DNA from: Candidatus Micrarchaeaceae archaeon
GTDB taxonomy: Archaea; Micrarchaeota; Micrarchaeia; Micrarchaeales; Micrarchaeaceae
NCBI GenBank assembly: GCA_027310755.1
Contig: DAIDAE010000007.1
Coordinates: forward strand, 1-39,329
Direction: 5' to 3'
Length of the DNA: 39,329 nt
Below, piece by piece: positions 10,915 through 11,314 of this stretch (position 1 is its first letter; each line of letters opens with the position of its first letter). A model generated the notes under the pieces. The model was given only the letters and a program-made list of their open reading frames with translations, did no database searches and was not told the DNA's origin. The translations under genes and the position numbers were made by a program.

Positions 10915-10928
10915 ATTTATATCTTTCG
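10915..10928 (-). promoter_or_regulatory. BRE/TATA promoter of the reductase gene
   Basis: Read on the minus strand, CGAAAG followed by ATATAAAT is a near-ideal archaeal BRE plus TATA box. It is centred about 50 bp upstream of GTG 10869 and only ~14 bp upstream of ATG 10905, so it argues against the ATG. Confidence 0.65.
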
Positions 10929-10951: not shown

Positions 10952-11314
10952 GTGATTTATACGGCGAGTAAACCAGCAAAGGTCGGTGGGAACAACATAC
11001 CCATCCCGGTCATAAAGATACAGAACATAGTTGTCAGCGCAGACCTTCATGCGGTGATTGACCTTTATTCTCTTTCAAAGGAGGTAAAAGCCGTCGATTA
11101 TGAACCCGAGCAGTTTCCAGGCGCGATATTCAAGATAACAGAGCCAAAGGCCGTTATAATCCTGTTCAAGAACGGGAAAATGATATGCACTGGAACAAAC
11201 ACAGAGGCGAACATAAAGAGGGTCCTTGAGTACGCCTCCAAGGTGATATCAAAGTACGTCATCGAAGTAACCCCTGCGGTCTCGCCCTTGAAAAACGCTG
11301 CCCCAAAGAAATGA
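10952..11314 (+). CDS. Single-repeat TATA-binding protein (half-TBP)
   Basis: A protein of about 120 residues holding one TBP repeat where archaeal TBPs (~180 residues) have two. The order is strand S1 KIQNIVVSADL, helix H1, VDYEPEQFPGAIFKI, KAVIILFKNGKMICTG, then helix H2 (EANIKRVLEYASKVI) and a short Lys-ending tail. It keeps the DNA-contacting residues of a complete half-site: Asn in IQNIV, the two intercalating Phe (QFPG and ILFKNG) and Thr in CTG. The S1 wording resembles repeat 2 of normal TBPs. No second repeat is found: upstream is the divergent promoter, and the stop is followed by another gene's promoter. The start is uncertain; GTG 10952 is the only in-frame candidate in the intergenic region. 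It may homodimerise or pair with a TBP encoded elsewhere. Confidence 0.85.
   Translation: MIYTASKPAKVGGNNIPIPVIKIQNIVVSADLHAVIDLYSLSKEVKAVDYEPEQFPGAIFKITEPKAVIILFKNGKMICTGTNTEANIKRVLEYASKVISKYVIEVTPAVSPLKNAAPKK

Follow-up and report, generated by a model that had tools for sequence, protein, structure and literature searches.

Gene starts in archaea and eukaryotes are marked by a universal promoter factor, TATA-binding protein (TBP), whose two-lobed form is taken as fixed in textbooks. One gene of a micrarchaeal genome, located in a stretch of 39,329 nucleotides that was analysed whole and is referred to here as the window, encodes only one of the two lobes, which raises the question of whether half a TBP can do the work of a complete one, and in what form. 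The features of this gene, designated A, are listed below with their window coordinates (f1 is the family to which the source genome belongs).

10952-11314, forward strand: coding sequence of half-TBP A (120 aa, GTG start), an open reading frame with one TBP repeat and then a stop; syntenic orthologues throughout f1.
11012-11257, forward strand: single TBP repeat of A (PF00352 positions 2-85), from the profile match.
11024-11026, forward strand: N25, the central minor-groove contact Asn, from the alignment of 79 orthologues, with its role taken from TBP structures.
11102-11110, forward strand: E51-P-E53 in the stirrup, a Glu pair of the C.L3.2 / C.L3.4 type, from alignments, with its role taken from PMC7221094.
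11114-11116, forward strand: F55, the stirrup Phe predicted to insert into DNA, from the alignment and the role in TBP structures.
11165-11167, forward strand: F72, the second Phe predicted to insert into DNA, from the alignment and the role in TBP structures.
10916-10922, forward strand: candidate TATA-like box of the A gene (TTTATAT), a consensus match only, 36 bp 5' of the start codon.

The product of A gave a single match to the Pfam TBP profile (PF00352; 83.7 bits, E 8e-24, cut-off 22.9), covering positions 2-85 of 85, which made it a member of the TBP superfamily. It aligned with both repeats of the solved archaeal TBPs, and archaeal TBP was its closest relative in the comparison with solved structures and NCBIfam. 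The NCBIfam models recognized it as a TATA-box-binding protein with a best score of 88.5 bits, below all of their cut-offs (181 or more) because one half is absent. No second tandem repeat was found in the chain of A or its orthologues, and neither a second repeat nor a frameshift remnant in the surroundings of the gene, while the single-repeat architecture and the stop were kept at this locus in about 80 named relatives. The reading frame was thus exactly as described in the earlier note on this DNA, which had reported one complete repeat, a clean stop and no trace of a second. No other Pfam domain was found in A, which is therefore not a catalytic-domain fusion of the RNase HIII or DNA glycosylase type; its 120 aa comprise one TBP domain and nothing else, as in monopartite TBP-domain proteins.

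The canonical set of DNA-contact residues (Asn, Val, two Phe and Thr) was conserved in A as N25, V27, F55, F72 and T80. Among 79 A sequences, N25, V27, E51, E53, F55, F72 and G81 were invariant and T80 was conserved in at least 90%, in agreement with the earlier observation that the N, F, F and T of one TBP half are all kept. The equivalent contact residues were invariant or nearly so in 20 sequences of a second half-TBP, B (see below), and in 22 halves of other families, and the stirrup Glu pair was present in every micrarchaeal half-TBP lobe compared, whether from A, B or other families. This pair is a C-lobe signature, in contact with Arg and Thr residues of TFB/TFIIB (PMC7221094), and is often absent from canonical N-lobes. 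Within the genus, the A orthologues shared 93-98% core identity, and pN values of 0.015-0.047 against pS values of 0.65-0.82 indicated that the gene is under strong purifying selection. The divergent FAD oxidoreductase gene next to A, and the glycosyltransferase and SRP54 genes nearby, were kept in most of the f1 members examined; the conservation of the orthologues (pN << pS) and the retention of these neighbours argue that A is not a remnant. A very probably performs the job of TBP, although it is not a two-repeat TBP. Directly downstream of A, on the same strand, lies a gene for a 218-aa protein (window:11363-12019) without any Pfam or NCBIfam match.

Named relatives place the source organism within Candidatus Micrarchaeota, in the family Micrarchaeaceae or close to it. 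The whole source genome (869,511 bases in 62 contigs, estimated to be 90% complete) was searched for TBP matches, and only two were detected: A, and the half-TBP B on contig C7, a 110-aa protein with a single repeat (L001:1444-1776). No two-repeat TBP was found across this genome, so that the proposal of the earlier note that A might regulate or assist a complete TBP is not supported. The same search of the 90%-complete genome found no hidden full TBP; an assembly artefact or a frameshifted full TBP was ruled out by the identical architecture in dozens of independent genomes, and contamination by the synteny of A across f1, which involves the FAD oxidoreductase, glycosyltransferase and SRP54 genes. 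In one scan of viral contigs, no relative of A was found.

The distribution of half-TBPs was surveyed in 60 relatives, comprising 37 genomes of f1 and 23 of the sister family f2, and in 295 genomes of the phylum Micrarchaeota. Exactly two separate half-TBPs were present in 31 of the 37 f1 genomes; the remainder carried three halves (2/37), one half (1/37), two halves plus a two-repeat TBP (1/37) or none (2/37), and one of the two genomes without a match was only 52% complete. In the two genomes with three halves (G009 and G013) B was duplicated, giving A+B1+B2 (L139, L140, L206, L207). The f1 genome with a canonical two-repeat TBP (L167) beside A and B carried it on an 8 kb contig (G022, contig C43) that is probably foreign. 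A check proposed in the earlier note, the search of this genome and its relatives for a two-repeat TBP, thus yielded none in the genome itself, nearly none in its order, and a second half-TBP in B. Exactly one half-TBP was found in 15 of the 23 f2 genomes, including one assembled in a single contig (G039) and one that is 97% complete (G037); seven f2 genomes had two matches, which in six reflected an A-type gene or second half and in the seventh (G059) what looks like a tandem fusion; the remaining genome had none.

Across the phylum, one half was the rule in families f8, f9, f10, f13, f14, f15, f17, f19, f22 and f25, and one to three halves per genome were found in f11, whereas two-repeat proteins, about 185-220 aa long, were found in f3, f4, f5, f6, f7, f12, f16, f18, f20, f23 and f26. 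One f11 genome in two contigs (G082) contained three half-TBPs (L203, L204, L205), two of them nearly identical. A very diverged second TBP-like repeat (42 bits) was observed alongside a normal half-TBP in a genome of f21 (G149:C12:19300-19539). Among the Micrarchaeota genomes more than 90% complete, 95 of 96 had a TBP match. Many Micrarchaeota therefore lack a normal two-lobed TBP and carry single-lobed halves only. A-type genes were seen only in f1 and in part of f2, the remaining halves being B-like, and the loss of A from many f2 genera counts against the pairing of A with B proposed below, since B can evidently do without A as a rule. That one half is able to serve as a whole TBP is argued most strongly by the partnerless half in genomes up to 97% complete, including the one assembled in a single contig.

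We propose that A is one of two half-TBPs that would jointly replace the ordinary two-repeat TBP in this micrarchaeon. Each chain would contribute one lobe, the contact between chains running through strand one of the repeat like that between the lobes of a normal TBP, and the resulting two-chain saddle would push four Phe side chains into the TATA-box minor groove. An ordinary asymmetric TFB would dock on one of the stirrups, with its second cyclin fold reading the BRE and setting the direction of transcription. In lineages with one half, the saddle would have to be a homodimer, most plausibly a symmetric one in the sister lineages of this kind; in f1, which has both A and B, the working form would most likely be an A:B heterodimer, with homodimers as possible alternatives. 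Dimerisation, the A:B pairing, the bending of DNA and orientation by the BRE alone are all inferred. A two-chain saddle in some form is highly likely, the complete explanation, with A and B replacing TBP as a two-chain saddle that is here most likely A:B, is probable, and A:B as the main form in this micrarchaeon is slightly favoured.

A role outside promoters, with A binding nucleic acids as a lone lobe or acting as a TFB decoy, is very improbable: single TBP-like domains do act in other contexts, such as RNase HIII and the DNA glycosylases, but those are fused to catalytic domains, whereas A stands alone, has archaeal TBP as its nearest relative and keeps the Glu residues that contact TFB, and in lineages with one half this is the only TBP present. 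TFB was found in all of the 30 genomes checked, in one copy in most of them, and was conventional in having a Zn ribbon, two cyclin folds and a conserved C-terminal helix-turn-helix. In f1 and f2 (L296, the TFB of G000), the region ahead of the Zn ribbon was basic and longer than in other families. Promoters were compared in 400-kb samples of three related genomes by counting TATA-like hexamers at -44..-24 from the predicted starts. Such hexamers were in excess in a genome with A and B (80 vs 41 expected, z 6.4), in a genome with one half as its only TBP (25 vs 9 expected, z 5.7) and in one with a two-repeat TBP (46 vs 18 expected, z 6.7), which indicates that TATA-type promoters persist with half-TBPs. 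The cores of the promoter motifs were near-palindromic in all three genomes and, since these included the two-repeat control, have no bearing on the symmetry of the saddle.

The earlier note had suggested that a saddle might form from separate single-repeat chains, and the distribution data strongly support this part of it, as no full TBP is present in this genome or in nearly all others of its order, and several families have a half as their sole TBP; the plain homodimer that it envisaged is not the leading candidate for this genome, in view of the presence of B. Because a diverged B was found in nearly every f1 genome, an A:B heterodimer is likelier here than a homodimer of A. When scored against profiles of the canonical N and C repeats, A was displaced towards C (mean N minus C of -1.0 bits, range -6.0 to 4.4) and the B proteins of f1 towards N (mean +8.0 bits, range 6.1 to 13.4), with no overlap between the two ranges, as expected if an A+B pair split the two lobe roles. 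The N and C repeats of the micrarchaeal two-repeat proteins were shifted in the same way (+3.6 and +0.5 bits). A was also slower-evolving than B, an observation that does not discriminate between the pairing models. In a different arrangement, A and B would each homodimerise and act as alternative TBPs on different promoters, as may occur in haloarchaea, with no A:B pairing. Judging from the lineages with one half, homodimers should be sufficient; some genomes carry three halves (A+B1+B2 in G009 and G013, and those of G082 in f11), all DNA- and TFB-contact residues are kept in both A and B, and strict co-occurrence would fit two homodimers with different targets as well. However, A is highly conserved and kept in nearly all f1 genomes, unlike dispensable TBP paralogues, and A and B have diverged along the canonical C/N axis, so that separate homodimers are an unlikely arrangement, albeit one to be taken seriously.

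Monomer models of A, a prediction that the earlier note had also called for, were obtained with AlphaFold in two runs and were of low confidence (pLDDT 52.6 and 57.8). The confident part comprised S2-S3-S4-H2, while the first strand, the presumed dimer contact, was uncertain; even so, all 44 best matches in a fold search with the second weak model (pLDDT 57.8) were TBPs.

On the question, posed in the earlier note, of which half A derives from, its profile scores lean towards the C repeat, but trees constrained to an origin from the canonical N- or C-repeat (AU p=0.46 and 0.15) favoured neither. A history of fission would split one ancestral canonical TBP into two genes, its C-repeat giving rise to A and its N-repeat to B and the remaining halves, and the A:B dimer would then rebuild an ordinary TBP. 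The more C-like A and more N-like B agree with such a history, and the constraint joining A to canonical C was not rejected (AU p=0.154). In contrast, the best tree of 106 repeats, which included the halves and the N and C repeats of two-repeat proteins, placed all Micrarchaeota repeats, A among them, in one group apart from the canonical N and C repeats (aLRT/UFBoot 96.7/100); moreover, A-type genes were found only in f1 and f2, and since families that branch more deeply have the other type alone, fission would imply that A was lost many times. Fission is thus a rather remote prospect.

The relationship between the half-TBPs and the two-repeat proteins of the same phylum was examined with species trees. 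A rooted tree of EF-2 nested the two-repeat families, with alternatives at AU p=0.29; as EF-2 alone was insufficient to root the phylum, RpoA1 and RpoB were added. In the concatenated EF-2/RpoA1/RpoB tree, rooted with one outgroup lineage only, the two-repeat families formed one clade (100/100), the deepest branch of Micrarchaeota was a half-TBP clade (support for all remaining families 100/88), and monophyly of the half-TBP families was rejected (AU p=0.0018). The RpoA1 open frame was 1133-1155 aa long in the deep clade with f24, f13, f15 and f10 (L326-L329), compared with about 860 aa in most others, which suggests that the long form of this clade is a fusion, perhaps with RpoA2. Repeat-by-repeat orthology of the micrarchaeal two-repeat proteins with canonical TBPs was rejected (AU p=0.02), while one fusion event, with the N and C repeats in separate clades, was not (p=0.29). 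Identity between the two repeats of a protein was 47-73% in the micrarchaeal two-repeat proteins, as opposed to 38-55% in canonical TBPs.

The position of the two-repeat families inside a grade of half-TBP families, together with repeats that are not orthologous to canonical N and C, indicates that the two-repeat TBP apparently re-evolved. The simplest history that these trees suggest is a half-TBP in the micrarchaeal ancestor followed by one duplication and fusion, and re-evolution by this route is reasonably probable. Alternatively, the two-repeat TBP may have been ancestral in Micrarchaeota and reduced several times, with gene conversion homogenising the remaining repeats. The repeat trees, based on about 85 residues, are weak enough to leave room for this, the YEPEQFPGAI and LLFKNGK motifs found in both repeats could be products of conversion, and one genome of the otherwise two-repeat family f6 (G136) has a single half-TBP (L220), a possible reversal or the effect of an incomplete genome. 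Repeated reduction nevertheless requires at least four parallel losses, and both the three-gene tree, which rejects monophyly of the half-TBP families and nests the two-repeat ones, and the rejected N/C orthology count against it, making it distinctly unlikely.

In an f2 genome, an apparent in-frame tandem of two near-identical half-TBPs was observed at the end of a contig (G059, contig C39, L020:1487-1897); the copies had 1 difference over 99 overlapping bases, and the contig terminates within the first copy. A tentative joint reading, in which Micrarchaeota would have retraced the history proposed for TBP, would start from a single-repeat, homodimeric and orientation-free ancestor, with the half duplicated but left unfused as A:B in one order, and duplicated and fused into a new two-repeat TBP in one clade and in a lineage of f2; the A:B pair would be obligate and restore asymmetry, the fused TBP would be independent of that of other archaea and eukaryotes, and the f2 fusion would be separate and recent. 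Taken as a whole, this reading falls a little short of an even chance. The likeness to the proposed ancestor of TBP, raised in the earlier note, is upheld insofar as the half form appears ancestral within Micrarchaeota; nothing shows that it is the primordial TBP, and it is no less likely to have arisen secondarily, by reduction of a two-repeat TBP.

With a half-TBP, sole or paired, alongside an ordinary TFB, this phylum makes old questions directly testable: whether directional transcription can proceed from a symmetric saddle, whether polarity can come from BRE and TFB alone, and what is gained by fusing the lobes. If true, re-evolution of the two-lobed TBP would repeat, independently, the way in which TBP is presumed to have originated, and the half-TBPs would offer biochemistry a natural split TBP. 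The papers that were searched contained no description of half-TBPs in Micrarchaeota.

Among known systems, free-standing single-TBP-domain proteins are reportedly found in some Archaea, a finding attributed to Brindefalk et al. in 2013. These monopartite proteins share with A the single free-standing domain; they are reportedly occasional, whereas the Micrarchaeota halves are the sole TBPs of whole families, form an A/B pair and appear to have been fused again later. The multiple TBPs of haloarchaea are, like A and B, paralogues in one genome that possibly combine with TFB, but they are two-repeat proteins (two repeats in each of the three sequences compared). TBP-like single domains also occur in DNA glycosylases, fused to catalytic domains, and RNase HIII carries one as well (PMC7221094). 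In both enzymes it is, as in A, a single helix-grip domain contacting the minor groove, but it lies within a multidomain enzyme and is far more distant in sequence than canonical TBP. The closest system is the canonical archaeal TBP (1mp9 from Sulfolobus acidocaldarius, 1pcz/1ais from Pyrococcus woesei and 2z8u from M. jannaschii), which has the repeat in common with A over the full Pfam profile, shares the contact Asn, two Phe, Thr and TFB-contacting Glu pair, and works with an ordinary TFB; it has two repeats per chain where A has one, and, unlike it, any half-TBP dimer is predicted to have two stirrups of the C-lobe, TFB-binding type. Like canonical TBP, the half-TBPs have the marks of a general factor, near-universal in their phylum (95/96 genomes) and accompanied by TFB.
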